The translations under genes were made by a program, and so were the position numbers. Under the pieces are notes generated by a model. That model ran no database searches, was not told where the DNA came from, and saw nothing but the letters and a program-made list of their open reading frames with translations. Below, in pieces: positions 1,072-58,300 of a stretch of 64,000 nt of DNA. The DNA is from Polychytrium aggregatum (Eukaryota; Chytridiomycota; Chytridiomycetes; Polychytriales): NCBI RefSeq assembly GCF_025602895.1, contig NW_026516283.1, positions 1 to 64,000 on the forward strand. The letters are read 5' to 3'. The number at the start of each line of letters is the position of its first letter. Position 1 is the first letter of the stretch.

Positions 1072-2922
1072 TCACACCTCCTGGGTGAACTGCATGCTTT
1101 GGAAGGCATTGTCCGGACCAAACACAGTCGATCGTAGCGGGGGCTGCTTACCACCAGGCGTCATATTCATCTTCTCGGCTCGAAGGGCGTCAATTGCCCA
1201 TGCTCGATGATTGGCGGAGTTGTCGAATTGGAACAGAGCAACACAATCGGGATGAAGGGACTCAAATACTGGAATCGCCCGCTGCACTTGCTCGAGCATG
1301 TCATCGCTCTTCCAGGAAGTTTGATAATCTGGATCAATGATCGCAGTGGCGTCGGACGACTCATTCTTGAGGATTCCGTGACATTCACATAAAAACGCAC
1401 TGACCATGACAGTTCGGCCTGCCCCTTTGGGTTTTGGCTGGCCATAGTCGCACTCTTCGAACCATCCCCAACCAATATCGTCATTTGCGTAAAAAATACT
1501 TTCATCGTGCGAAACCAGAACAATTCTTTTCTCATCTTGGTTTCTGGGCTCTATCCCGATCTCCATGCTTGATCCTTCAAAGAACTTCATTCGCTCTTCG
1601 TAGACTTTCATCTGAGCAAGATACTGGGTGCGATCCTTGACAACATCCTCTCGCTCATGCCCATCTACGTATTGACCCTTTTGATAGCGCCTGAATTTGA
1701 AGCCAAAGAGACGCAACGCTCGTCGTGTTGTAGATATGGTAATGGATTTTGGAGTCTGGCGACGAGATGACTCGTTATCGGACCGAAGCTTGGGAATCAA
1801 GTGGTCGTCGATAAATTTCTTGAAGGATCGTGGTGTTCGATTTGGATTTCGGCGAAGAAAACGGACACACTCTTCCATGACATCTTCGTCACGCAGAATC
1901 GAGAGTGTCTTTCGATGCTTGCCAGTGTTTGTCAAGGGAAGGCTCCCATGAAGGAGGAAGTGCCTTGCCCATTTTCGGATCAAGACACTGAAGTGTCTCA
2001 AGCTGCGTTTCATAAGCACGGTTTTGGCAAGTTGTTGGCAAAACTTTGAGTCGCTCAAGGATTCACCATCCAACTTTTTCTGGAGATAGAGGAGAACAGC
2101 CTCGTAACGGCGGGCATTGAACCTTGTCAGGGTTTCTCTTTGGACTCTGTCAGTGCGTGACTCACGAAGAATCCCTCAGAGCCTCAATACAGCTCGCTCC
2201 ATGCTGTTTCTTGCGAAAAGATCAACATCAGATACATGGCCAGCCGGGATATCGACAGCGTGTTGGGCAGCGGAGCTCGCAGTCGAGTTGGTCTTGGGGA
2301 TGACTGGGAAGTAGCTCTTGATTCCAGGTGAGGCATGCGACGCCATTGCCTCGCGACTCTCAGCACGCTTGCGTCGCTTGTTGCGCTCGGAATCACCGAT
2401 GTAAGCTCGCTTCTTGATTTTTGGAGGAGTAAGGCTCATCGAGGAGGGGAGAACTGGGTCGAATGGGACCTGAGCGACGGGTGCTACTGTCTGAGGAGGT
2501 TCGCAAAGGGCTTGTGGGTGAGAAGCACATGGGAATGGCTGTTGGGATATAGCCAGATGCTGACCCTCGGGCAGCGAGTGAGTCGCCTGGGTGCTCAATA
2601 CGCCGGCCACATCGGTCGAGTCGGGGTGGAGAGAATCTGGGTCGTCAGCAACCCTATCGTCTGGGCCGGGGTTGGCAGTTGTCCCAGGGCAGTCCGGGCT
2701 GCTGGCAACACGTGCGAGGCGAGCAAGATTCGCAAGCTCAGCCCTCCTCTGGGTTGCCTTGGCCGTTTTGAGTTGATATAACTCAAACAAAAATGAATTT
2801 AACCCAACCAAACTCCGTGAGCAAATAGCGAGACCAATTTCCGACAGATTCACGGAGTTTGAGGTTCGCATGAGAAAAATTGAAGAAATTATTGGAGATG
2901 GGCCAAGGGCACAAACTGTCAA
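1072..2922 (-). pseudogene. Relic of a fungal DDE (IS630/Tc1-like) transposase, stop-interrupted and 3'-truncated
   Basis: One minus-strand reading frame runs from 2922 to 1072, broken by a single in-frame TGA at 2176-2178. The N-terminal half is basic and proline/serine-rich, with lysine/arginine clusters typical of nuclear DNA-binding tails. The C-terminal half contains the signatures of a DDE superfamily common in fungal genomes: 'HDESIFYANDD' with the first catalytic Asp, and 'FQFDNSANHRAW' with the second. It stops at 'FQSMQFTQEV', before the region that should carry the third acidic residue, so it cannot be catalytically complete. A 389-bp Fanzor-derived miniature element inserted just 5' of it at 2926. 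The frame has no ATG at its upstream limit, so the true start is lost or lies beyond that insertion. Family-level identity is moderately sure. Confidence 0.7.
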
Positions 2923-2927
2923 TGTTA

Positions 2928-3316
2928 CACTTTACTCAGGGGAAATGGGACACCTGCCCACAACCCATTCGTCAGCGTTGTATGCGATGGAATGCGTCTA
3001 ACTATGTCATAAGAAATGTAATAGATTACTTTGGCAGCCTCCGAGTGAAGACCACCGGTCGCTCTCCGGTCTCCACAGTCGACCTGCACACTGGTCTCGG
3101 ATTGCCAGCGGTGCATGGTGCTCTTGGACAGACTGAAGATGGTGGCGACCTTGCGCAAGCTGCGGAACAGCGAGTAGCATCGCAGTGCAGCAATGCGGAA
3201 ATCGAGGGTGCTGTGTTTGGCCATGATCGCAATGAGTGGGTGGGTGTATTCAGGTCCCAGAAAAACCCACTATGATGGCTCAAAACGGGGTGTCCCATTT
3301 CGTTTTGGAAACGCTG
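2928..3316 (-). mobile_element. 389-bp miniature (MITE-like) derivative of the Fanzor/mariner element
   Basis: The element is bounded by TA at 2926-2927 and 3317-3318. Its termini begin CACTTTACTCAGG and (other end, reverse strand) CAGCGTTTCCAAAACG; both then run into AAATGGGACACC. Read on the minus strand it contains the first ~43 codons of the element's transposase (helix-turn-helix part, 'RIAALRCYSLFRSLRKVATI'). These are fused to the last codons of a Fanzor ('VQVDCGDRRATGGLHSEAAK' in one frame, equivalent to the CRSIVETGER tail) and the Fanzor 3' tail. Everything between has been deleted. It is more diverged from the 51.4-kb copy than the other two derivatives, so it is older or from a sister subfamily. 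Confidence 0.85.
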
Positions 3317-3329
3317 TAAAGCGTCGCGC

Positions 3330-3600
3330 ACCATAGGCCTTGGCTCAAGAAGCTTCGGGTGCATATCGACTTCCACCTTGGCAAGAAGGCCCGTCACCAT
3401 CGCTTCACAGGCCACAAGAGGCGCCAAGTGGCGGTTGACAGGATGTGCAAGGCCGTCCTGAAGCACTCCCCGATACGGACCGATGTGGTGATCGCCTTTG
3501 GCAATGCGTCATGGCGACAGGGCAAGGGCTATGCATCCAGCCCTCGGAGGCAGCGCTTTGCTCGGTACTTTGAGCAATTCAAACCCCACCGTCGCCACCC
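3330..3600 (+). pseudogene. Internal fragment of a Fanzor nuclease gene
   Basis: The plus-strand frame reads RPWLKKLRVHIDFHLGKKAR and continues through 'HHRFTGHKRRQVAVDRMCKAV', 'IRTDVVIAFGNASWRQG' and 'SPRRQRFARYFEQF'. It matches residues about 620-700 of the intact Fanzor at 52677-55070, the region around the RuvC-II position. The fragment has only one copy of the VDRMCKA heptad that is duplicated in the intact gene. Similarity ends near 3600, before the zinc ribbon and RuvC-III. It begins only 12 bp from the TA flanking the 2928-3316 miniature element and has the opposite orientation. Confidence 0.85.
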
Positions 3601-3861
3601 ACGTCGCCCTTCATATGACTAAGCTTGACGGAACCTCATCACATGGTACATGTTCACGGAAGCGGCTGTGGTTTCCTTTTTTCTGGATAGAGTGGACACC
3701 TGGTATCTGATGGTCTCGGCTTTATTGATTACTCTCGATGGACATTTGATCCATATTTCCTTGGCGCTGTCAACACGACGCGGCGGCTTGGCTGTTCATA
3801 TCGACTCACGAAATCCGTTGTCTTCAATTACGAGCCGTATTGTTACTATCGTCTGGGGATA

Positions 3862-13061: not shown

Positions 13062-14103
13062 CACTTTATTCAGAAAAAAACGGGACAATATAGCCGTTTC
13101 CATGAACATGTAGTATGTGCTGTGCTTGCGTCAAGCAAAGCCACAAGAAATAAAACAGATCACTTTGGCAGCCTCCGAGTGAAGACCGCCGGTCGCTCTC
13201 CGGTCTCCACAATCGACCTGCATACTGTGATCATGTTGCGCGCCGCATTGACGTCGCGATTCCACACTGTCCGGCAGCTGGGATTCTTGCAGCTCCTGAC
13301 AAAGTGGGAATTCGCATCACTGGGCGCATCGAGTCCTTCCAACCGAACTGGCTCCAGGCACTTGGAGCACACTTGCGAGGTGTTGAACTCGTTCGTCGAG
13401 ACTACCTTGACGCTTCCATGATGGTGATTGGGACGGCGTCGGTGGTGCTCGAATTGCTCAAAGTACCGAGCAAACCGCTGCCTCCGAGGGCTGGATGCAT
13501 AGCCCTTAGTACATGCGATGCAGCACACCAGAGTGGTTGATGGCAAATGCAGCCGAGACAGACTTGTGTTTCATGTGATTGCGCTAGCGAAGCGAAGCAC
13601 CCTTCGGTGAGTATCCGTAAAGAGGGAAAATGGATTTCCTGATCCCCGTCTCATCGACAAAAACGAATCGTCGTGGGTCGATGGAGCGGACCTGGTCCCT
13701 GAACTGTGCCACTCGCTCATCCAGTCGCTTGGACTTGTAGAGGTGTGTTGCCCTCTTGTGTGAGAGACCTGCTCGGTGGATGGCAGTGTGGCAGAGTGAG
13801 AGTGATACTTTCCTCTGGAGGATGGACTCGAGCTTGCACCGCAGCACAGGACCAGTCTGGAACGGGTCCTGTTCAATCAGGGTGCGAATGACTGGACATG
13901 CCTGCTCGAAGAAAGTGGATCTGCGAGCTGGGACCCGGGATGGGTCATCCAGCTTGCATCCTCGGTGCCATCGATGGATGGTGCTCTTGGATACACTGAA
14001 TATGGAGGCGACCTTACGCAGGCTATGGATGAGGGCGTAGCATCGCAATGCGGCGGTGCGAAAGTCGGATGTGTGGCGAATGGTCATGGCCAGCGCGCGA
14101 TCA
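13062..14103 (-). mobile_element. Internally deleted Fanzor/mariner element, left end lost
   Basis: The right end (CACTTTATTCAG, A-run, CGGGACA) starts after TA 13060-13061. On the minus strand it contains the first ~170 codons of the transposase (ATG at 14087), ending in a nonsense TAG at 13584-13586 where the 51.4-kb copy has CAG. A few codons later a deletion joins transposase sequence to Fanzor codons 'KGYASSPRRQRF' through the zinc ribbon, RuvC-III and stop (13160), plus the entire 3' tail. It is nearly identical to 35612-36721, including the junction and the nonsense codon, so both descend from one deletion derivative. The left terminal repeat is missing: near 14100 the sequence switches at TTGGG into target DNA. 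It cannot encode either full protein. Confidence 0.9.
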
Positions 14104-14300
14104 CATTGGGAAGCATAATATTGAATACACCCCGGCCGATCTCCTGTGGCGACGATCGACCGGCAAACCGACATCATGTTTCGCGAGACATTGATGTTGC
14201 ACTTCGCAGTGTAGTGCATGCATTCGACCCTCAGGGCAGCGCCATGTCGAGATGGTGTGGTCAAGCGAGTTGCTCGCCATGTGTTCCGGGCGTGGTCGTC
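14104..14300 (-). pseudogene. Relic of a second Fanzor family (Fanzor-B), C-terminal end
   Basis: The minus strand reads 'HYTAKCNINVSRNMMSVC', then 'RSIVATGDRPGCIQYYASQ'. This corresponds to the RuvC-III/C-terminal segment of the intact Fanzor ('NRDVNAARNMITVC', 'RSIVETGERREVF'). The catalytic Asp position has become Asn-Ile-Asn ('CNINVS'), and the frame is broken upstream. The nucleotide sequence is closer to the relics at 35.2 kb and 51.26 kb than to the intact gene. The 13062 element is inserted in its 3' part. Confidence 0.75.
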
Positions 14301-35611: not shown

Positions 35612-36721
35612 CACTTTATTCAGAAAAAAACGGGACAATATAGCCGTTTCCATGAACATGTAGTATGTGCTGTGCTTGCGTCAAGCAAAGCCACAAGAAA
35701 TAAAACAGATCACTTTGGCAGCCTCCGAGTGAAGACCTCACGTCGCTCTCCGGTCTCCACAATCGACCTGCATACTGTGATCATGTTGCGCGCCGCATTG
35801 ACGTCGCGATTCCACACTGTCCGGCAGCTGGGATTCTTGCAGCTCCTGACAAAGTGGGAATTCGCAACACTGGGCGCATCGAGTCCTTCCAACCGAACTG
35901 GCTCCAGGCACTTGGAGCACACTTGCGAGGTGTTGAACTCGTTCGTCGAGACTACCTTGACGCTTCCATGATGGTGATTGGGACGGCGTCGGTGGTGCTC
36001 GAATTGCTCAAAGTACCGAGCAAACCGCTGCCTCCGAGGGCTGGATGCATAGCCCTTAGTACATGCGATGCAGCACACCAGAGTGGTTGATGGCAAATGC
36101 AGCCGAGACAGACTTGTGTTTCATGTGATTGCGCTAGCGAAGCGAAGCACCCTTCGGTGAGTATCCGTAAAGAGGGAAAATGGATTTCCTGATCCCCGTC
36201 TCATCGACAAAAACGAATCGTCGTGGGTCGATGGAGCGGACCTGGTCCCTGAACTGTGCCACTCGCTCATCCAGTCGCTTGGACTTGTAGAGGTGTGTTG
36301 CCCTCTTGTGTGAGAGACCTGCTCGGTGGATGGCAGTGTGGCAGAGTGAGAGTGATACTTTCCTCTGGAGGATGGACTCGAGCTTGCACCGCAGCACAGG
36401 ACCAGTCTGGAACGGGTCCTGTTCAATCAGGGTGCGAATGACTGGACATGCCTGCTCGAAGAAAGTGGATCTGCGAGCTGGGACCCGGGATGGGTCATCC
36501 AGCTTGCATCCTCGGTGCCATCGATGGATGGTGCTCTTGGATACACTGAATATGGAGGCGACCTTACGCAGGCTATGGATGAGGGCGTAGCATCGCAATG
36601 CGGCGGTGCGAAAGTCGGATGTGTGGCGAATGGTCATGGCCAGCGCGCGATAACATTGGGTAACAAAATATTCGATGAATGGTCAAAAACCCGGGTGTCC
36701 CGTTTTTTATTGGATTGCCTG
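35612..36721 (-). mobile_element. 1110-bp deletion derivative of the Fanzor/mariner element with both ends
   Basis: It is bounded by TA at 35610-35611 and 36722-36723. The right end (CACTTTATTCAG, A-run, CGGGACA) and left end (outer strand CAGGCAATCCAATAAAAAAC, then GGGACACCCGG) match the 51409 element. On the minus strand it contains transposase codons 1 to ~170 (ATG 36637), with the same TAG nonsense codon as the 13062 copy (36134-36136). The same junction then leads into Fanzor 'KGYASSPRRQRF' to stop (35710) and the full 3' tail. It keeps the Fanzor catalytic Glu, the Zn ribbon and the RuvC-III Asp codons, but not RuvC-I. It inserted at a TA inside the older 35051-36826 element. Confidence 0.92.
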
Positions 36722-36894
36722 TAAACGCATCGCTGAATGGTCATGGCCAGCGCGCGATGGTTTGAGGCAACAAAATACTTGTTCAACGGCCAAAATCCGG
36801 GGTGTCCTTTTTTATTGGATCGGCTGTAATGAAAGAATAAACATCGACAGCAAAATACAAAACAACCAAACAGAGAGCGAAACGGTGGGGAAGA

Positions 36895-48322: not shown

Positions 48323-50980
48323 TCAGACATGCATCCAGGCTGGCTGGTCGGCAGACGGCTCGGCCAGCTTGATCGTCACAGTCGTGTCTCCATGGGTCAC
48401 TTCAATACCCAGATCCTCGACTGCCTCCTTGAGGGCCCACATGAACCTCGTCCGGCGAGCAGCCTTCTTTCCGCCGTCCTGCCAGTTACTCTTGTGCTCC
48501 AGCACCATCGTCACCCACAGCGACTTGCGATCCACAAGCTCGGAGATGGTGATTTCACAGGCTTCGCGAAAATCGCGGCTTTCTTGGCCCAGGAACTGCA
48601 GGATGCGCTCTTGCAGCGCGAGCAGCTTCTCCTTCGGGGTCGTTGCAACCACGGCGAGCTTGATCTCTTCGAGCTGATGGCCAGACCGCCGGATGTTGAA
48701 GATGTACTTGTCGATAAGGGTGGAATTTGGGACGTATGTTTCCTTGCCATCGACCTTGCGGAGCACGGTGGTGTTGAGGCCAAACTCTTTGACGAAATAG
48801 GCGTCTCCGTCAAGCTCGATGCGATCGCCAATGTCGTATGGATGCGAGACAAACAGAAAGATGATGTTCTCGACCAGGCGCTTAATCGTTGCGCCGACTG
48901 GGTGGGATTGATGGCGAACCAGACGAGCGCATGAGTAAACAGCACCAGCGGGCTCGATCCGACTGAAAGCCGACAAATGCTCGAAGCGAGATAGAGGAGT
49001 GCGCGGGGATACTCACTCGCAAACAGGACGCCGGCCCACACCGAGATGGCCACGGTCAGGAACTGCGAGGTATCGATGCTCCAGATGCCCAGCCACAGAA
49101 AGACGGTGATGATCCAGACAAAGAGCTTCATGATGTTGTCCAGGGTCGAAATGGCCTGCGACGAGTCCCTGAGCGACTTTTGGATCGAAGCCCGCTCCTT
49201 GAACACATGCACAATAATCTCCTTCATCTCGGACTTGCTTATGTCGCCGTTACCATCCTTGTCGAAGAACCGAAAGGCCGCCTGGGCCTCCTCCGGAGAG
49301 TCAAAGTACGGCTCAAAGTCCGAAGGCACCAGAAGCGAGGCGCCGTCGTGGCGGAGCGAGAGGAACAGCGTCTTGGCAAGGACCTTGGCATCGTGGACGT
49401 TGCGCAGGACGATGCCCGCCGGCATGCCGAGCTGCAGTCCGACCATAGCACCAATGGCGTGCGAGAGACCCGTCATCACGTTTTTGAAGAGGTTGGCCTT
49501 GGATGTCTGAGGGGAAGCATGGATGTCGATGCTCTCGTGAGACTTTTCGACGCTGGCTGGGATGGTGACATCTCTTCGGACCTTGCGCGACTTGTTGAGG
49601 TGTGCAAGGACAAGGAAGGCATCTTTGTTGGTCCGGATTCGGTCTCGGTAAGCTCGCTGGTGGTCGGTGTCAGTGTCGGCGGGGAGCGAGGGAGATCATG
49701 AAATGCAGAGGTTGATTAGTCTTGCGCCGGTCCGGGTATCGTCGTCTCCATTGTGTGCTCGCATCTGCGATAGAGTGCCGTGCATTTCCATCGCCCCTGC
49801 CTTTGCAATCGCACCACTTGCCCTTTACCTTGTGGAACGAAATTGCAAAAACTTGCAGCAGGAACTTTTCGATGCACCATACGATCGAGGCAGCCAGGAT
49901 CGAGGCCCAGATCAGCTGTATGATCTTTTGCCAGTCGTTGTTTGGGTCGATGTGCTCCGTAAAGATCGTTCCCCAGGTGATCGAGCCTATGATGCTCCAC
50001 TAGATGTCAGGATAGATCTGTGGTGTCAGTACGGCGCTGTGTGGTTGTATTCAGGGCGATCCTGCCAAGTCCATGCGAACTCACCATCAGCCACATCAGA
50101 TAGGGCCGCAGATGAGTCACGTAGTTGATGATCTCCTCGACTTTATTGGCGTAGACGTTCAGCTCCGATGCATCCAGCAGCACATCGGCAACATAGATGA
50201 TGATCTCGGGCACGATCCGGAGCAGCCATCTCAAGCCAAACCACGCTTTTGAATGAAATGGCACAGGGAGTCAGCAAGCAGATGCGAGGGTCGTGCTCCT
50301 AACATGCATGACACTAACCTGTCCACATAATGACACCGTAGACGCTGAATACAAAGACCGGGTATTGGCCGATGGAGAACCCGTTGGTGGCGACCTGTTT
50401 GTTCCAGGTCACGCTGGTGTCCGCTGGGGACCCGTGGAGTTGGGCGAGTGCAGGGTGGGCAGAAAGGAGGATGGCAAGGGAATGAACGGCCAGCGACGAG
50501 TCAGTGGCATCCTGGCGATCATGGCACGGGCGATTCACACGGCATCGACAATCGCACGACGATGATGGAGATGGTGATAACGATGGCGCGGGTCGTGTGG
50601 ATCCAAGCCATGCTGCTCGCAAGCAGATCCTGGTTCAGATGCAGAGGACGCATTTCAAGCATGGGCATGGAGTCTCCGACAGGCGATTGTTCCCGTCTCC
50701 TCGTCGTCACATCTTCCCACGCCCCAGCTCACACACACTTGCCTACAAAAAACAAATACGATATGATCCCAGGGATCATGATCACGGCGTCGCCGATGAC
50801 GATGTAGGCGACATCACGGACGGCAGCTGGAATGCGGTGGCAACATGCACAGCAGCGGCCAAAGATGGTTCTGGCGGCCTTTTCCTGCCGTTGGATGGAT
50901 TCGTATTCTTCAGTCTTGTCCCAGTCGAACTCCCCCTCGGGATTGACCTGGTCGGGAGACTCGTTTGCAGCGTCGCTCAT
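48323..50980 (-). CDS. EF-hand MscS-like mechanosensitive channel (Msy1/Msy2 type)
   Basis: A gene of about eight exons starting at ATG 50980 ('MSDAANESPDQVNPEGEF'). Well-supported exons include 50245-50085 ('AWFGLRWLLRIVPEIIIYVA'), 49999-49829 ('WSIIGSITWGTIFTEHIDPN', 'IIQLIWASILAASIVWCIEK'), 49656-49017 and 48897-48323. Exon 49656-49017 carries an EF-hand, 'FRFFDKDGNGDISKSEMKEI', with all calcium-ligand positions, then the pore-region helix 'IMKLFVWIITVFLWLGIWSI'. The last exon has the MscS beta domain: 'NIIFLFVSHPYDIGDRIELD', 'FGLNTTVLRKVDGKETYVPN', 'NIRRSGHQLEE'. Boundaries of the first two or three exons (50980-50319) are approximate. In fission yeast such channels sit in ER/perinuclear membranes and respond to hypo-osmotic shock with calcium feedback. 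Confidence 0.9.
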
Positions 50981-51249
50981 CAGTGCACAATCGAACTGAT
51001 GCCGCAGTGAGTGTGGGGGCGGATCGGCGCGATCGGTCCTGAGCGGCAGCGTCGAGTGCTGGGATCGCCGCTGGGATGATGGCTCACTTGCTGGGATAAG
51101 GAGGGGGGCAGGGTGCCAAAGCCCGCGCAGGTCGAGATCGGATCTGCCGCCCATGAGGCCGCCCGCAAGCGGAAGCGAGGGGGGGGGTAACTGGAAGCAT
51201 AGCCAAAACGAAACGAGATAGTTGTCAAGCACGAAGGCATGCACCACAT

Positions 51250-51403
51250 CGCGACATCAGCGTCAATCGACCGCCGCTACAGGAGATCGGCCAGATGTAT
51301 TCAAGACGATGCGCCTGCCCATCGGCATCAACAGATGTGATCAGCAGGCTTGAGTCGCTGATACCAGGGAAACGGCACATTGTCGTTTTTCTAGAACAAG
51401 CTG
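51250..51403 (+). pseudogene. Fanzor-B relic: C-terminal end and decayed right terminus
   Basis: CTACAGGAGATCGGCCAGAT, then GTATTCAAGACGATGC, matches the Fanzor-B C-terminal codons seen at 35.2 kb (CCACAGGAGATCGACCGAGT, then GTATTCAAGACTGTGC) and 14.1 kb. Downstream, ATTGTCGTTTTTCTAGAACA, then AGCTG and TA (51404-51405), resembles the right terminal repeat of the family. The relic is in the same orientation as the complete element, whose left TA begins only one base further on. It is strongly decayed. Confidence 0.65.
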
Positions 51404-51408
51404 TATTA

Positions 51409-51434
51409 CTGGCAATCCAATAAAAAACGGGACA
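51409..51434 (+). repeat. Left terminal inverted repeat of the Fanzor element
   Basis: 26 bp directly after TA. It shares the A-rich block and CGGGACA with the right end (55143-55170). The outermost ~12 bp differ between the two ends, and the same asymmetry is seen in the 35612 copy, so the ends are only partly inverted-repetitive. Confidence 0.85.
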
Positions 51435-51492
51435 CCCGGGTTTTTGACCATTCATCGAATATTTTGTTACCCAATGTTATCGCGCGCTGGCC

Positions 51493-52423
51493 ATGACCAT
51501 TCGCCACACATCCGACTTTCGCACCGCCGCATTGCGATGCTACGCCCTCATCCATAGCCTGCGTAAGGTCGCCTCCATATTCAGTGTATCCAAGAGCACC
51601 ATCCATCGATGGCACAGGATGCAAGCTGGATGACCCATCCCGGGTCCCAGCTCGCAGATCCACTTTCTTCGAGCAGGCATGTCCAGTCATTCGCACCCTG
51701 ATTGAACAGGACCCGTTCCAGACTGGTCCTGTGTTGCGATGCAAGCTCGAGTCCATCCTCCAGAGGAAAGTTTCACTCTCACTCTGCCACACTGCCATCC
51801 ACCGAGCAGGTCTCTCACACAAGAGGGCAACACACCTCTACAAGTCCAAGCGACTGGATGAGCGAGTGGCACAGTTCAGGGACCAGGTCCGCTCCATCGA
51901 CCCACGACGATTCGTTTTTGTCGATGAGACGGGGATCAGGAAATCCATTTTCCCTCTCTACGGATACTCACCGAAGGGTGCTCCGCTTCGCCAGCGCAAT
52001 CACATGAAGCACAAGTCTGTCTCGGCTGCATTTGCCATCAACCACTCTGGTGTGCTGCATCGCATGTACATCCCCACATCATTCAAGACACACTCGATGG
52101 TCGAGTTCTTTGAGCGAGCGAGCTTCCCAGACGACTCTGTGATTGTGATGGACAATGTCAGCATGCACAAGACAAGGGCTGTCCTGGACTGCATCGAGCG
52201 CCGAGGATGGTCAGTGATCTTCACCCCACCTGCCTCGCCCGACTTCAATCCCATCGAGAACTTCTTTGGGATTGTGAAGCATCAGTACAGGAAGGCAGCA
52301 GCGCTGAATGCGTCTGAGGGGTTCAGAGTCGGGATGGTGACCCTGTTTGAGTCTGCCGTGCGGAGAGTGCTTCCGGACGTCTTCCCACGGCTGATTGAAC
52401 GTGCGATGCGCTTCTGGGGTTGA
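51493..52423 (+). pseudogene. DD34E Tc1/IS630-type transposase, frameshifted
   Basis: ATG 51493 opens 'MTIRHTSDFRTAALRCYALI' and continues into a helix-turn-helix ('SLRKVASIFSVSKSTIHRWH'). At 51614-51616 the sequence is GGCACAGGATGC where both deletion derivatives have GGCACCGAGGATGC. The two missing bases shift the frame, and the remaining 270 codons continue in another frame to 52423. That part has the catalytic triad Asp (51922, 'FVFVDETGI'), Asp (52151, 'VIVMDNVSMHKT') and Glu (52256, 'SPDFNPIENFFGIVK'), with 34 residues between the last two. Apart from the shift the 310-codon gene is complete, so the damage is recent or a sequencing artefact. The family cuts and pastes at TA. Confidence 0.9.
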
Positions 52424-52512
52424 GTTCCCTCCAATCAAGCCGCCGTTCTCACGTTCACATCCCTGGCTTGAACCTCTCGGCGATTTTTGAACAGGGTCAC
52501 TTCCCCAACCAG

Positions 52513-52530
52513 CCCGCGCAGACGGGCTCC
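52513..52530. promoter_or_regulatory. Perfect 6-bp hairpin before the Fanzor TATA box
   Basis: AGCCCG, loop CGCAGA, CGGGCT lies between the transposase stop (52423) and the Fanzor TATA box (52543). It might terminate transposase transcription or be a regulatory site. Only one copy of this part of the element exists in the window, so conservation cannot be judged. Confidence 0.35.
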
Positions 52531-52542
52531 TGCTCTCGGGTA

Positions 52543-52548
52543 TAAATG
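52543..52548 (+). promoter_or_regulatory. TATA box of the Fanzor gene
   Basis: TATAAA lies 134 bp upstream of the Fanzor ATG (52677) and 120 bp after the transposase stop. It suggests the nuclease is transcribed from its own promoter inside the element rather than as a read-through product. Confidence 0.5.
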
Positions 52549-52676
52549 CCACACCTTCGTCCTGCTGCTTTCTTCCCTCATCTCGCCTTGATCTGATCAT
52601 CGCGCTATTGTACGATAAAAAAAAAGTCTCTGCTCTGACCAGTACCACTGGCAGGCATCCAGCATCCTCTGTCCCC

Positions 52677-55070
52677 ATGCCTCCGAAGCGCAAGGGTACC
52701 GGTGATGGCCAGCCTCGGCCACCCAGGCCCAAGAAAGCCAAGTCACAGTCGGAGCCTGTCTCTGGTTCGTATTCTGACCCCACGCATGCTTGTTCGTCTG
52801 TTGCTCCGTCGCTCACCACCACTGCTTCTGCAGATCCAATGGATGTCGATCCCACCGAGCCTGGTCCATCTACTTCCTCGAGTACCGGCAAGCGATGTCG
52901 CCAGTGCGATGGCACCGATCACGAGCGAAGCAACACCAACAGGTGTCCCGAATATCACCCCCTCAAGAGTTCTGTCGTCCCACTCGTGGATGGAAGGTCA
53001 TCCGCCCCTCAGTTCAGCTGCTTCAAGCAGACGATGGATGGCTGTTGTCTCAATCCCGCTCTCCGCGACAAGATCCAGGCCACCGTCGAGGCCATGACCC
53101 AGATCCAGTTCGAGGCATCCAGGCTGCTCAACCTGCACATCCTCCGGTGCATCGAGCAGGATCTTCCCGTCCCCGTCATCTCCAAGTCCACCCCTGCTTT
53201 CATCCGCCAATGCTTCAAGATTGTCGAGGCCGATGCCCTCTCGCCGACCGGGGACAATGAGAAATACAACGAGCATCTGGTCGCTTCCTTTCGCGACTAC
53301 CAGACCACTCGGCACGCAGACCTGCCTCCGGCCCCTCGTCTGCCTGATGGTGCTCACAGTCAGCTTCTCACACTGGCTGTCAACGCCTATGCCACCAACT
53401 GCACCACCCACCTCAACCTGGCATACTGGCGACTCCTTCGCCGCTTCTGCGCTGCCGTCTTCCCTGCCAACAAGCACAAGCACGAAGCCATCGAGGCCTG
53501 TCTCGAGCTCTTCGAGAAACCAGGGCAGACTCCACCCAAGGCCGATCTCGAGTTCCTCTATCCAGACTTTGGCCACGTCCTGGACGAGTTTCGGTACAGC
53601 AGCGACCAGGACCGCTTCCGGGCCCTCCACCGCCTCTCACACCATGTGGGTCTCCTCGCCCGAGACAAGATGGTCGACAATGTCCACAAGTGGATCGACT
53701 GTGACATACCCGCCCTCCAAGTCACCGAGCTGCAGCGCCAGGCCAAGCTGGACGAGCTCACTACCCAAGGCATTCCCTCCGACGACAAGAGGTTCACCAC
53801 GGCCAAGTCTGAGCTCGGCACCACCAAGGCCAAGATCAACAAGCTGGCATCCAGGATCAACTGGGCACTCAAGCAGCTCGCCGTCGACACTCCTCCGGCC
53901 GTGTGCACGATAGTTCCTCTATGCACTGCAAGGGCCAAGTATGTCAAGATTGACACGGTCACTCTCTGGCAACTCCTTGACACCGATCATCGTCTTGACC
54001 TCACCTGGGACATGCTCAAGGAAGAAGGTGAGGACGGTGTCAACAACCAGGATCGTCTCTGGCGCAGCTGCTTCAAGCTGCGTAGTTCCCTCTTCCAAGA
54101 GCGAGTCAGGGACAAGAAGCTGTTCAACTACGAGATCAGCACCGATGGCATTGGATGCACCATCGGCCTCGTCAAGTTTTTGCGTCGAACCGATCGCACC
54201 GAGACCTCCGAGCCTCCTCCGACCGCCGAGCAGCGCATCCAGGAGCACATCGGCGACCCAGACCCCAACCGCACCACTTGGATTGGCATCGATCCTGGAG
54301 TCGGCTCCATCTTCACGGCGGTCATCCAAGCACCGGGCCACCAAGACGAGGTGGTCTCGTTCTCCAATGGCCACTACCAGCACATGTGTGGCCATACGTC
54401 CAACACCAAGTGGCACAATATCATGAAGTATCGACTCAGCATCGAGACCTGGATGTCGACCACCCCCTCGCCCAAGGTGTCGTCCTCGGAGGCTTTCAAG
54501 GTCCATCTCACCCATGTCCTGCGACCGGAGCTGCGAGTGCAGCTCGACTTCCACCTTGGCAAGAAGGCCCGCCACCATCGCTTCACGGGCCACAAGAGGC
54601 GCCAAGTGGCCGTCGACAGGATGTGCAAGGCCATCGACAGGATGTGCAAGGCCGTCCTGAAGCACGCCCCGATACGGACCGATGTGGTGATCGCCTTTGG
54701 CAATGCGTCATGGCGACAGGGCAAGGGCTATGCATCCAGCCCTCGGAGGCAGCGGTTTGCTCAGTACTTTGAGCAATTCGAGCACCACCGACGCCGTCCC
54801 ACTCACCCTCACGGAAGCGTCAAGGTGGCCTCGACGAACGAGTTCAACACCTCGCAAGTGTGCTCCAAGTGCCTGGAGCCAGTTCGGTTGGAAGGACTCG
54901 ATGCGCCCAGTGTTGCGAATTCCCACTTTGTCAGGAGCTGCAAGAATCCCAGCTGCCGGACAGTGTGGAATCGCGACGTCAATGCGGCGCGCAACATGAT
55001 CACAGTATGCAGGTCGATTGTGGAGACCGGAGAGCGACGTGAGGTCTTCACTCGGAGGCTGCCAAAGTGA
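52677..55070 (+). CDS. Fanzor RNA-guided nuclease (TnpB homologue), intact
   Basis: A single exon of 797 residues; the open frame extends 69 bp upstream but without ATG. The N-terminus has nuclear-localisation-like basic clusters ('MPPKRKG', 'RPPRPKKAK') and a C-x2-C-x4-H-x7-C knuckle (residues 74-90). A helical region of about 400 residues follows. The RuvC-like domain begins at 'WIGIDPGVGSIFTAVI' (Asp539). The segment 'DVVIAFGNASWRQG' occupies the usual RuvC-II position but lacks the TnpB glutamate. A Glu is present instead in 'STNEFNTSQVCSKC' (Glu722), the alternative site reported for Fanzors. The zinc ribbon uses Cys729, Cys732, Cys755 and Cys760. RuvC-III is 'WNRDVNAARNM' (Asp767). All catalytic and metal ligands are present. 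Relative to the 3.4-kb fragment, a 21-bp tandem duplication (54612-54653) repeats the VDRMCKA heptad. By family it would cut DNA using an RNA encoded at the element's right end. Confidence 0.93.
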   Translation: MPPKRKGTGDGQPRPPRPKKAKSQSEPVSGSYSDPTHACSSVAPSLTTTASADPMDVDPTEPGPSTSSSTGKRCRQCDGTDHERSNTNRCPEYHPLKSSVVPLVDGRSSAPQFSCFKQTMDGCCLNPALRDKIQATVEAMTQIQFEASRLLNLHILRCIEQDLPVPVISKSTPAFIRQCFKIVEADALSPTGDNEKYNEHLVASFRDYQTTRHADLPPAPRLPDGAHSQLLTLAVNAYATNCTTHLNLAYWRLLRRFCAAVFPANKHKHEAIEACLELFEKPGQTPPKADLEFLYPDFGHVLDEFRYSSDQDRFRALHRLSHHVGLLARDKMVDNVHKWIDCDIPALQVTELQRQAKLDELTTQGIPSDDKRFTTAKSELGTTKAKINKLASRINWALKQLAVDTPPAVCTIVPLCTARAKYVKIDTVTLWQLLDTDHRLDLTWDMLKEEGEDGVNNQDRLWRSCFKLRSSLFQERVRDKKLFNYEISTDGIGCTIGLVKFLRRTDRTETSEPPPTAEQRIQEHIGDPDPNRTTWIGIDPGVGSIFTAVIQAPGHQDEVVSFSNGHYQHMCGHTSNTKWHNIMKYRLSIETWMSTTPSPKVSSSEAFKVHLTHVLRPELRVQLDFHLGKKARHHRFTGHKRRQVAVDRMCKAIDRMCKAVLKHAPIRTDVVIAFGNASWRQGKGYASSPRRQRFAQYFEQFEHHRRRPTHPHGSVKVASTNEFNTSQVCSKCLEPVRLEGLDAPSVANSHFVRSCKNPSCRTVWNRDVNAARNMITVCRSIVETGERREVFTRRLPK

Positions 55071-55170
55071 TCTGTTTTATTTCTTGTGGCTTTGCTTGAC
55101 GCAAGCACAGCACATACTACATGTTCATGGAAACGGCTATATTGTCCCGTTTTTTTTTCTGAATAAAGTG
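55010..55170 (+). ncRNA. Candidate Fanzor guide-RNA (omega-RNA/fRNA) scaffold region
   Basis: This covers the Fanzor C-terminal codons, its stop (55068-55070) and the 100-bp tail to the element end. The tail holds a strong hairpin at 55089-55111: GCT, one mismatch, TGCTTG, loop ACG, CAAGCA, mismatch, AGC, with TGT/ACA outside a one-base bulge. The tail is identical in the 13062 and 35612 derivatives apart from homopolymer length, although the coding part has substitutions. In characterised Fanzor elements the guide RNA overlaps the 3' end of the gene and runs through the right terminus, using flanking host DNA as guide. Here the flank starts TACTGTTGTCAACAGCGCAA. Exact RNA ends are unknown. 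Confidence 0.6.
55143..55170 (-). repeat. Right terminal inverted repeat of the Fanzor element
   Basis: TGTCCCG, nine T, CTGAATAAAGTG, ending before TA 55171-55172. The AATAAA inside the terminus (55162-55167) could also serve as polyadenylation signal for the Fanzor mRNA. Confidence 0.85.
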
Positions 55171-55381
55171 TACTGTTGTCAACAGCGCAATTCGAAAGGT
55201 GAAGGAACAGCCCTCCTTCCTAGGAGACTCGCTTCTGCATCAGCGCTCGGGTGGCAGCACACCGCAGAGCATCCACGGACGGCAACGCTCCGCCGGGAGA
55301 ACGTGGGGGGAGAGCAATTGGTGTGGCCAGTACAAGGATTTGCAGCGTGGCCGCACTTTGGCAACCTTGACAACGCCGGAT

Positions 55382-58300
55382 CTACTGCTGCGAGGTGCGC
55401 TCGACCCAGACGCGGGCGTTCCGGAACATCCTCAGCCAGGCACCGTCCTCGCCCCAGCCGAAGCGCTGGGCGCCCCAGGTGTTGGAGATGCTTCGGACCA
55501 CGCGCTCGGGGTGAGGCATCATGATGGTCACTCGGCCATCGTCATTCGTCAGGCCGGTGATACCAAAGGGACTGCCGTTGGGGTTGAAGGGGTAGCGATC
55601 GACGCCGGCCGGGGCACCGTAGTTGTCGACGAATCGGCAGGCAATGTTGCCGTCCTGGACCGAAGTCTCGAGACTCTCATCCGACACAAACTCGGCGCGG
55701 CCTTCGCCGTGGGCAACGGCGATGGGGATGCGGGTGCCCTCCATACCTGCAAAGAACACGCTCTTGCCGTTGACGATCTCGACGGTGCACTGGCGGGCCT
55801 CGAACTGCTCGCTTCGGTTGCGCAGGAACGATGGCCAGTTCTGGGCACCGGGGATGATCTCCTTGAGATTGCTGAGCATCTGACAGCCGTTGCAGATGCC
55901 CAGGGTGAAGGTATCTTTGCGGTTGAAGAACTTGACAAACTCGGCCCGAGCGTGCTTGTTGAGGAGGATGCTCTTGGCCCAGCCAGCGCCGGCTCCAAGA
56001 ACGTCGCCATAACTGAAGCCACCGGGGCAGGCCAGGCCGACAAACGAATCGAGCGCAACAGAGCCGTTCAAGATCTCGGTCATGTGGACATCCACGACTT
56101 CAAAGCCAGCCTTGTGGAAGGCCCAGGCCATCTCGCCAAAGCTGTTGACGCCCTGCTCGCGCAGAACACAGACGCGAGGCTTCTTGTCCACAGGGGTCTT
56201 TTCGATGATGTGGGCGGCAATGTCGTCGCTGGGAGAAAAGGTGGTAACGGGGTTGATGCCAGGATCGCGATTGTCCAGGATGGCGTCGTACTCGGCCTTG
56301 GCACAGGCGGGATGATCCCGGAGGGCCTGCATCTTGTAGGATGTGGCACTCCACATGCGCTGATACGTCACCCGGTGGCCCGACAGGACGGTTTCGCCCT
56401 TGGATCGGATCTGGATGGCGTCGTTGCCAAAGGCGTTGACCTCACCGAGGTCATGGATGTGGCTGATGTCGAAACCGCATCCATGGAAGACGGCCTTGAC
56501 CTTGGCCACATCGCTCGAGCGCACCTGCACCACGGCGCCAAGCTCTTCGTTGAAGAGGGCCGAGACCGCATCACCGGACTGGATCGCCGAGATATCGGCG
56601 CTGAAGCCGACATGGGCAGCAAAGGCCATCTCCAGGAGGGTGGTCAGGAGACCTCCGTCGGAGCGGTCGTGGTAGGCCAGGACCAGGCCCTGTCCGTTGT
56701 TGTCGCCGGTGGAGCGGGCTTTCTGCAGCGCATCCCAGAAGGCCTTGAGGCTCTCGGCCGACTCGACATCGGGGGTGTCGGCACCGATCTGGTTGTAAAC
56801 CTGGGCGAGGCAGCTGCCGCCCATGCGCTGCTTGCCGTTGGCCAGATCGATGAACAGGAGGCTGGTGGGGCCCACGTTGGTGCGCAATTCGGGAGTGAGC
56901 GTACGGCGGGCATCATGGACGGGGCCGTAGGCGGTGATGATCAGACTGAGCGGGGCCGTGACGGATTTTTTCTCGCCGCGGTCGCTCCACTGGGTCTTCA
57001 TGGACATGGAGTCCTTTCCCACAGGGACGGTGATGCCGAGCTTGGGGCAGAGATCGAGGCCAACCGCCTCGACGGCCTCGTAAAGGGCCGAACCTTCGCC
57101 CGGGTGGGAGGCGGCCGACATCCAGTTGGCACTGAGGCGGATGGTTGCGAGATCCTCGACATTGGCTGCAACAAGGTTGGTCAGAGATTCGGCAATCGAC
57201 ATGCGGGCGGCGGCGGCAGCGTTGACAAGGGCAGAGGGAGTGCGCTCGCCCATGGCCATGGCTTGGCCGGTGTATCCCTCGTAGCCAGAGGCAATGATCG
57301 AGACGTCGGCAACGGGGACCTGCCAGGGGCCAACCATTTGATCGCGGGCAACCAGGCCAGTCACCGTGCGGTCGCCGATGGTGATGAGGAACGACTTTGA
57401 GGCGACGGTCGGAAGATGGAGCAGACGCGCCGTCGCCTCCTCGATGGTGGCTTGGGCAGGCAGAGCAAAGGACGGGAGAGCCTTGGGCAGGGTCGTGGCA
57501 ACGCGATGCATCTTGGGGGGCTTGCCGAAGAGCGTCGACATGGGCAGATCGATTGGGGTGTTCTTGAAGAGTGAGTCCTGAACAATCAGGCGCTTCTCGG
57601 CGGTAGCAACACCGACGACGGCAAATGGGCAGCGCTCGCGCTTGCAAATACTGGAGAACCGCTCGAGGTCGGCCGGGGAGACAGCCAGGACGTATCGCTC
57701 CTGGGACTCGTTGCACCAGATCTCCATGGGGCTCATTCGCGGGTCGTCGCACGGCACATCGCGAAGCTGGAAGATGGCACCAAGGTCCGAGTCATGGACC
57801 AGCTCGGGCAGGCCGTTGGACAGACCGCCGGCACCAACGTCGTGGATGGCAATGATCGGGGTCTTGTCTCCGAGCGAGTTGCAGGTGTCGATGACTTGCT
57901 GGCAGCGGCGCTGCATCTCCGGGTTGTCGCGCTGGACCGAGGCAAAATCAAGCTCGGCCGAACTCTGGCCCTGGGCCATGGACGAGGCCGCGCCGCCACC
58001 AAGACCGATAAGCATTGAGGGGCCGCCGAGGACAATCACATGGCATCCTGGTTGGATGGGCTTCTTGAAGATGTGCATGGGACGAATGGTGCCCATGCCG
58101 CCGGCAATCATGATGGGCTTGTGGTAGCCACGGAGCTCCGAACCCTCCTGGGTCGGAATGCGCTCGAGGTAGGTTCGGAAGTAGCCAGTGAGATTGGGGC
58201 GGCCGAACTCGTTGTTGAAGGCAGCGCCGCCGAGGGGGCCCTGGATCATGATATCGAGGGACGAGGCCACATGGGCGGGCTTGCCGGGGTTGACGCTGGT

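Follow-up and report, generated by a model that had tools for sequence, protein, structure and literature searches.

A high-copy Tc1/mariner transposon carrying a predicted Fanzor1 nuclease in Polychytrium aggregatum, and its one-sided insertion-site motif

Introduction

The transposon described here lies at positions 51,409 to 55,170 on the forward strand of a 64,000-nucleotide stretch of the genome of the chytrid Polychytrium aggregatum (contig NW_026516283.1, positions 1 to 64,000; the whole stretch is called the window below), and it carries genes for a DD34E transposase and a predicted Fanzor1 nuclease. Its closest described relatives are PUl-1 and PGv-1, mariner elements that encode both a Mariner-type transposase and a Fanzor1 protein and are flanked by TA target-site duplications (TSDs), according to the element descriptions in Bao and Jurka (2013, PMC3627910). 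The likeness lies in the combination of both genes in one element with a TA TSD. Because PUl-1 and PGv-1 encode both genes, the element type is already known, in agreement with an earlier reading of the window from its letters alone (the sequence-only reading), which had assigned mariner-linked Fanzors to a known class. The differences are that the Polychytrium element belongs to a high-copy chytrid family, that two further related families carry other Fanzors, and that a one-sided flank motif could be measured on 85 sites.

A second comparison is provided by SPu-1 of Spizellomyces punctatus and its Fanzor1 protein, SpuFz1. According to the sections of Saito et al. (2023, PMC10432273) that deal with SpuFz1, its target-adjacent motif (TAM) is CATA, the CA of which is a conserved feature immediately before the left repeat in full and ghost elements, its transcripts extend 14-15 nt past the conserved end, and ghost elements of S. 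punctatus have retained a 3' end that resembles the RNA-coding one. The Polychytrium element likewise has a chytrid Fanzor1 in a TA-flanked element, conserved bases that extend the TA into the (here predicted) TAM, and non-autonomous copies that resemble the Spizellomyces ghost elements. It differs in that its transposase is in the same element, whereas the same sections report none found within the SPu-1 repeats, and in that the TAM is CATA there and predicted to be (W)TTA here. GtFz1 of Guillardia theta shares the Fanzor1 fold and a T-rich TAM that begins with TTA (TTAAN), but is described in the corresponding part of that paper as being without inverted repeats or clear transposase association (PMC10432273). 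TnpB of IS200/IS605 elements, which is paired with TnpA, resembles the proposed system in its right-end guide, in a TAM to the left of the element, and in the cutting of the empty site and cut-and-copy retention proposed for it (PMC10432273, where TnpB is discussed). The partner in the Polychytrium element, in contrast, is a DDE cut-and-paste transposase, with TA duplicated on both sides.

The biological role of Fanzors remains unknown in the account of Saito et al. (PMC10432273, passages on function). In the titles, abstracts and selected passages of the literature that we covered, we found no description of this family, or of a one-sided motif at the insertion sites of a Fanzor element that also has a transposase; it is this motif, and not the element type, that is new. 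Neither the motif nor the sister families with other Fanzors figured in the sequence-only reading. The family would make the role of a Fanzor testable, as it offers predictions of the TAM, of the protected junction and of the guide of each copy, and natural module swaps as controls. A sister family with nearly the same transposase and a different Fanzor amounts to a natural experiment. If the model proposed below is true, the motif is the genome-scale footprint of a Fanzor and a DDE transposase in their natural host, with a one-base rule for self and non-self and a simple reason for the presence of a Fanzor inside a cut-and-paste element.

Results and Discussion

The element and its two genes

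Judged from its sequence, the element is a Tc1/mariner (DD34E) transposon carrying a Fanzor1, a predicted RNA-guided nuclease, with the transposase gene first and the Fanzor1 gene second. It spans 3762 bp (51409-55170, +) between the left TSD (TA, 51407-51408) and the right TSD (TA, 55171-55172, +), which is directly preceded by G (GTG followed by TA). These boundaries are those of the sequence-only reading, and they hold beyond the window: in most of the listed genomic copies the match to the window element breaks off at the same TA, and TA is found at the left in 30 of 31 and at the right in 30 of 31 unique sites. The left terminal repeat (51409-51440, +) starts with CTGGCAATCC in the window copy and with CAGGCAATCC in most other copies. 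Both ends share an inner CGGGACA (ACGGGACA), and their outer bases differ, which makes the ends asymmetric.

A genome-wide search for the ends, recommended by the sequence-only reading, was productive. In the 64.7-Mb assembly that contains the window, a 30-base left-end pattern with at most three mismatches has 371 matches (haplotype duplicates included), compared with 0 for a reversed-pattern control. We fetched 38 further places (L009-L046); with the window copy added and L043 removed, as its left end was unreadable, there are 38 copies at 34 unique sites. Among these copies, the Fanzor frame (at least 785 aa) is open in 31, the full transposase frame in 17 and both frames in 13.

The transposase gene (51493-52423, +) matches PF13358 (Pfam DDE_3) at 3.4e-24. 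In the intact copy L011, which has the full 310-aa frame, the DDE triad consists of D145, D221 and E256, with a spacing of exactly 34 residues between the second D and the E, as expected from the initial DD34E assignment. A test for an N-terminal helix-turn-helix gave an HTH_23 match of 0.0009, below Pfam's own cut-off, in an in-window derivative. The window gene itself has a frameshift near 51616, which leaves the N-terminal part in one frame and the remainder, to 52423, in another. Since its transposase is frameshifted, the window copy is non-autonomous, and the earlier description of a near-intact autonomous element has to be given up. A near-identical copy on contig C384 also lacks a full-length transposase frame, and its Fanzor has 797 codons like that of the window copy. 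The two copies differ at one position in 3039 flank columns and at nine positions inside the element, a contrast that could stem from ectopic gene conversion or from polishing errors in repeats.

The second gene (52677-55070, +) is an uninterrupted frame of 797 codons, and its product is a predicted Fanzor1. A PF07282 match (6.3e-9) falls on the C-terminal zinc region. In an alignment of the window protein with five database relatives (28-34% identity), the RuvC-I residue Asp539 in a DPG motif (54291-54293, +), the alternative RuvC-II residue Glu722 in E-FNTSQ (54840-54842, +) and the zinc-ribbon residues Cys729, Cys732, Cys755 and Cys760 (54861-54956, +) are invariant; the RuvC-III residue Asp767 in NRD (54975-54977, +) is present in all six proteins but P0005, whose sequence diverges and ends there. 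All seven residues had been picked out in the sequence-only reading. Asp539 and Asp767 are kept in 31 of 31 open copies and Glu722 in 30, with Lys in L011, and the catalytic triad is complete in 30 of 31. The Fanzor1 signature as worded by Bao and Jurka, D-X(125,275)-[TS][TS]XX-C4 zinc finger-X(5,50)-RD (PMC3627910), is found as D539, T725-S726, C729/C732/C755/C760 and R766-D767, with 185 residues from D539 to T725 and 5 from C760 to R766. DPG and an alternative Glu, named in the passage on Fanzor signatures in PMC10711439, are both seen in the alignment (539-541 and E722) and both in 30 of the 31 open copies.

Profile and structure searches, suggested as a check by the sequence-only reading, point to the same family. 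A search of the PDB with the alignment profile retrieved SpuFz1 (Spizellomyces, 3.5e-20) and GtFz1 (Guillardia, 9.9e-11), and Foldseek ranked the three solved Fanzor1 structures (Spizellomyces, Parasitella, Guillardia) first; the AlphaFold model used here has low confidence (pLDDT 57.2, pTM 0.42) and served for fold ranking only. A protein search with the whole Fanzor, using words from the first 500 residues, gave no match at E 0.001, one with residues 420-797 gave seven matches at E 0.01, and a single-sequence search of the PDB gave nothing significant (best 0.44). The window protein has two 21-bp tandem units of 7 aa each (54615-54656, +), and L011 has a single unit; this duplication accounts for a length of 797 rather than 790 aa.

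A motif on the left side only

The base immediately to the left of the left TA (position -3) is T at 80 of 85 unique sites, A at 3, G at 2 and C at none. In the window, T precedes TA in 13.8% of cases, and the excess is highly significant (p=2e-62). Position -4 is A or T at 68 of the 85 sites, there is no comparable bias farther out, and the TA itself is intact next to the left end at 83 of 85. The count started from 97 flanks, reduced to 85 sites by the removal of haplotig duplicates, and excludes L037, whose start was misread, and L043, which had no readable left end; in addition to the full-length copies, 60 flanks were drawn from the first 100 exact matches listed for the left end, and for 20 of these 60 and a few more the linkage to the Fanzor of this family (family 1) is unchecked. 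At the right side, the third flank base is distributed evenly over 31 unique sites (C 10, A 7, G 8, T 6), and therefore there is no mirror-image preference. At these same 31 sites, T is found at -3 in 28 and A at +3 in only 7 (p=9e-8). All 31 have G as the final element base ahead of the right TA. The right-flank counts omit the duplicates L009, L020, L025 and L029 as well as L036, L037, L042 and L043. Like the gene content, the ends and the catalytic residues, the one-sided motif is a direct observation.

It could be argued that the T at -3 is part of the element and that the boundary has been misplaced, given that this T is nearly as constant as the TA (80 of 85 compared with 83 of 85). We consider this highly improbable. 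The TSD of Tc1/mariner elements is TA, which puts -3 outside the TSD, and position -4 is biased yet not fixed, as would be seen for a target preference. An internal-deletion derivative at 35612-36721 (-), in which element positions 1-661 are joined to 3315-3762, is also informative. It has both ends and the left flank TTTA, and it is nested in an older family-3-like element. Of 17 paralogous places fetched, 13 are unoccupied, and all 13 (some of which may be haplotype duplicates) have T at -3; they read GCGATGCGTTTCTGG, where the window reads GCGATGCGTTTA followed by TATGG, and the other four are deleted or different. The T therefore predates the insertion of this derivative and is target-derived in the one nested case that could be judged. 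On the strength of the -4 bias and of these 13 sites, we rejected an element-borne T.

A model for the motif

The one-sided landing-site pattern suggests that the Fanzor decides which insertions survive. On balance we favor the following model, while granting it clearly less than full confidence. The transposase would cut the element and paste it into a TA. An RNA from the right end would comprise a scaffold, made of the 3' untranslated region, the terminal repeat and the TA, and a guide, made of the first bases of the right flank. With this RNA the Fanzor would recognize and cut the unoccupied site, in which (A/T)TTA directly precedes the sequence of the right flank; the filled chromosome, sister or homologue, would then serve as repair template, and the element would be copied in or restored after excision. 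At a filled site, the left junction would have no match to the guide, and the right junction would match the guide but present GTA instead of TTA, so that the G spares the filled site. Insertions without TTA on the left could be neither defended nor spread by this route and would be under-represented. We predict the TAM as (A/T)TTA ending in the TSD, and place the guide after the right TSD, because SpuFz1 has that layout. In the window copy the predicted TAM is the left flank ATTA (51405-51408, +), and the predicted guide takes up 55173-55187 (+); its length of 15 nt follows from the overhang of the SpuFz1 transcripts. RNA expression, cleavage, TAM identity and homing are thus what we infer.

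Sister families and the role of the transposase

The chief alternative traces the left TTA to the transposase, or to its left-end complex, with an asymmetric preference for targets; the Fanzor would then be a passenger or act elsewhere. We think this rather unlikely, and the related families speak on both sides of the question. In L107, a member of family 2, the first 1014 bp (left end and transposase) are 95% identical to the studied element. Families 1 and 2 share 293 of 310 transposase residues, their Fanzors are 39% identical over the length of the protein, and the family 2 loci L120-L122 have a different right end. At ten unique sites linked by position to the family 2 Fanzor, -3 is T at 6, C at 2, and A and G at 1 each, which in this small sample differs from family 1 (6/10 versus 80/85, p=0.006). 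These ten sites omit C364, where the end is mutated (L119), and C5, which lacks a left end where one was predicted (L141). C326 was merged with C63:45899 since six flank bases agree between them, and the T count includes one site with a mutated TSD (TTGA). Family 3 is defined by its left-end sequence, which has 48 matches at up to three mismatches, a few of those at three mismatches being families 1 and 2. We fetched 20 places, 16 of them unique, dropped L149, L154 and L156 (no TA next to the end) and read L144, L157, L162 and L129 with a one-base shift. Over the 14 usable sites, for which linkage to the family 3 Fanzor was demonstrated at L129/L130 only, -3 is T at 9, C at 4 and A at 1 (p=0.005 compared with family 1). 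These comparisons point weakly to a motif that depends on the Fanzor family. Over all three families G is rare at -3 (3 of 109, compared with a background of 32.6%; p=5e-15), and G is the base at the right ends (GTG before TA in family 1, CTG before TA in family 2).

In favor of a transposase preference, the three families have related left ends and all favor T at -3 above background, families 1 and 2 have nearly the same transposase, derivatives almost without Fanzor keep the motif, and the terminal repeats differ, so that an asymmetric complex is possible. Against it, the Tc1/mariner transpososome is two-fold symmetric, and TTA and TAA would be expected in equal measure, not A at +3 in 7 of 31; family 2 has a looser motif behind almost the same transposase; and in SpuFz1 the conserved upstream flank bases belong to the TAM of the nuclease (PMC10432273, section on the TAM). 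Family 2 thus weakens the transposase explanation, which keeps some probability because all families favor T. As to the full claim, namely that the Fanzor and not the transposase determines which TA insertions persist, that exchange of the Fanzor behind the same transposase changes the motif, and that a single right-end G hides the occupied site, we find the case evenly balanced.

The 3' end

The predicted reRNA (right-end RNA) scaffold corresponds to the 3' untranslated region, right terminal repeat and TSD (55071-55172, +). Among 25 of the 38 copies (truncated, duplicate and misread ones and the window copy were left aside), diversity is 0.020 in the 98-nt 3' non-coding end, 0.067 at Fanzor third positions, 0.042 between the genes and 0.028 in the left 84 bp. 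The predicted fold of the 3' end with the TSD contains a pairing between the terminal bases and an internal segment, GUGUA with UACAU for family 1 and CUGUA with UACGG for family 2. According to the description of Fanzor1 RNAs in PMC10711439, their scaffold includes the TSD, and the modelled pairing is weakly consistent with this published layout. An Rfam scan of 50000-56500 gave no matches.

Points against the model

Several observations weigh against a Fanzor that selects the insertions that persist. T at -3 exceeds the background in family 2 (6/10, p=0.0009) and in family 3 (9/14, p=2e-5), and therefore part of the preference may come from the shared transposase. If only the seven closest family 2 sites are considered, T is found at five, and the difference from family 1 is not significant (p=0.087). 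Of 40 further left-end loci, six have an almost wholly deleted Fanzor gene and still show the motif; we also count this presence of the motif in favor of the model, but at such loci the Fanzor would have to act in trans. In a second nested case the paralogs have C at -3, but they also differ at -1 and -5, which makes the case unusable. As for the RNA, the minimum-energy folds of families 1 and 2 beat shuffled sequences only moderately (z about -2), and the fold that includes the window's own guide has a z of -0.96. The predicted TSD stem shows no covariation within family 1; a base is changed or missing at one pair in 5 of 26 copies, and on the other side in one more.

Empty alleles also failed to appear. 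When 31 joined flank pairs were searched in the assembly, none was found contiguous among the best 40 candidates per search, where a contiguous empty allele would be expected to rank first. Two rows at 88% that span L014 were dismissed as an empty allele: since L014 has a related left end as its right flank, we attribute them to the filled locus and to its counterpart on a second contig. Among the matches listed, a second contig appears for at least 23 of these 31 loci. With one difference in 3039 flank columns in the one pair compared, the insertions may simply predate the split, and we therefore do not count homozygosity as support. The terminal branches of full-length copies measure 0.9-2.5%; together with the lack of empty alleles at the 31 loci, this reduces the recent activity proposed from the sequence alone to a possibility.

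Selection on the two genes

A third explanation makes the Fanzor a non-functional hitch-hiker, amplified only by its position between the ends. Derivatives without most of the Fanzor still moved, and the class-corrected ratio of nonsynonymous to synonymous singletons over 25 copies, broken ones included, is 0.55 for the Fanzor, not below the 0.42 of the transposase, so that there is no sign of extra selection on the Fanzor. These results fit a hitch-hiker, which we nonetheless consider improbable. Despite being 2.5 times longer, the Fanzor frame is open in more copies (31 of 38) than the transposase frame (17 of 38). The comparison is not a clean one, as the copies were chosen by whole-element match and a small number of source elements may have given rise to many of them. 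Nearly all copies with an open Fanzor (30 of 31) retain the catalytic triad, and the 3' non-coding end is less diverse (0.020), though transposition needs that end too. Both genes seem to have been under constraint during the multiplication of the family, and nothing points to stronger selection on the Fanzor than on the transposase. A claim of purifying selection on the Fanzor in place, based on a raw singleton ratio of 0.29 in open copies, was dropped when class correction raised the ratio to 0.55.

Derivatives and other observations

The sequence-only reading had found matching ends in deletion derivatives within the window. This applies to 35612-36721, which has both ends, but only in part to a second copy with the same internal deletion at 13062-14110 (-), which has lost its left end and keeps the right one. 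The left junction of this copy is mosaic, part of it being a Fanzor 3' end of the family 2/3 type, with TATGCTTCCCAA on both sides. We considered a cut-and-repair footprint there and dropped it; element-internal sequence also aligns at this place. Several relatives are indeed present in the 64 kb, but such a density, taken as unusual in the sequence-only reading, is ordinary for this genome. Among the 40 further left-end loci, five have shrunk to a left end of about 97-207 bp and a right end of 168-216 bp, and one (L077) has the 661/3314-type deletion. A 140-bp deletion in the transposase is common to 16 of the 40 (L049, L051, L053, L055, L056, L058, L061, L075, L076, L078-L083 and L085), an abundant subfamily; it hits the C-terminus and truncates the transposase, and long Fanzor frames lie near some of these loci.

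Fragments of related Fanzor-mariner elements, older and diverged (79-87% identity), are found at 2993-3610 and 36735-36820 of the window, and a 313-aa open frame at 1072-2013 (-) gives the impression, from its sequence, of a part of another DDE-type transposon gene. Elsewhere, two Polychytrium aggregatum proteins, P0003 and P0004 ('male sterility' and F-box by Pfam), include Fanzor C-terminal sequence, as a result of either gene-end insertions or gene-model errors. Open frames of 477 aa (C124:405504-405698 and 410594-410788; C379:92828-93022 and 97918-98112) score higher on PF07282 (70 bits) than the studied family (about 43 bits in the same search), and possibly belong to a Fanzor2- or IS607-type family that this genome also contains.

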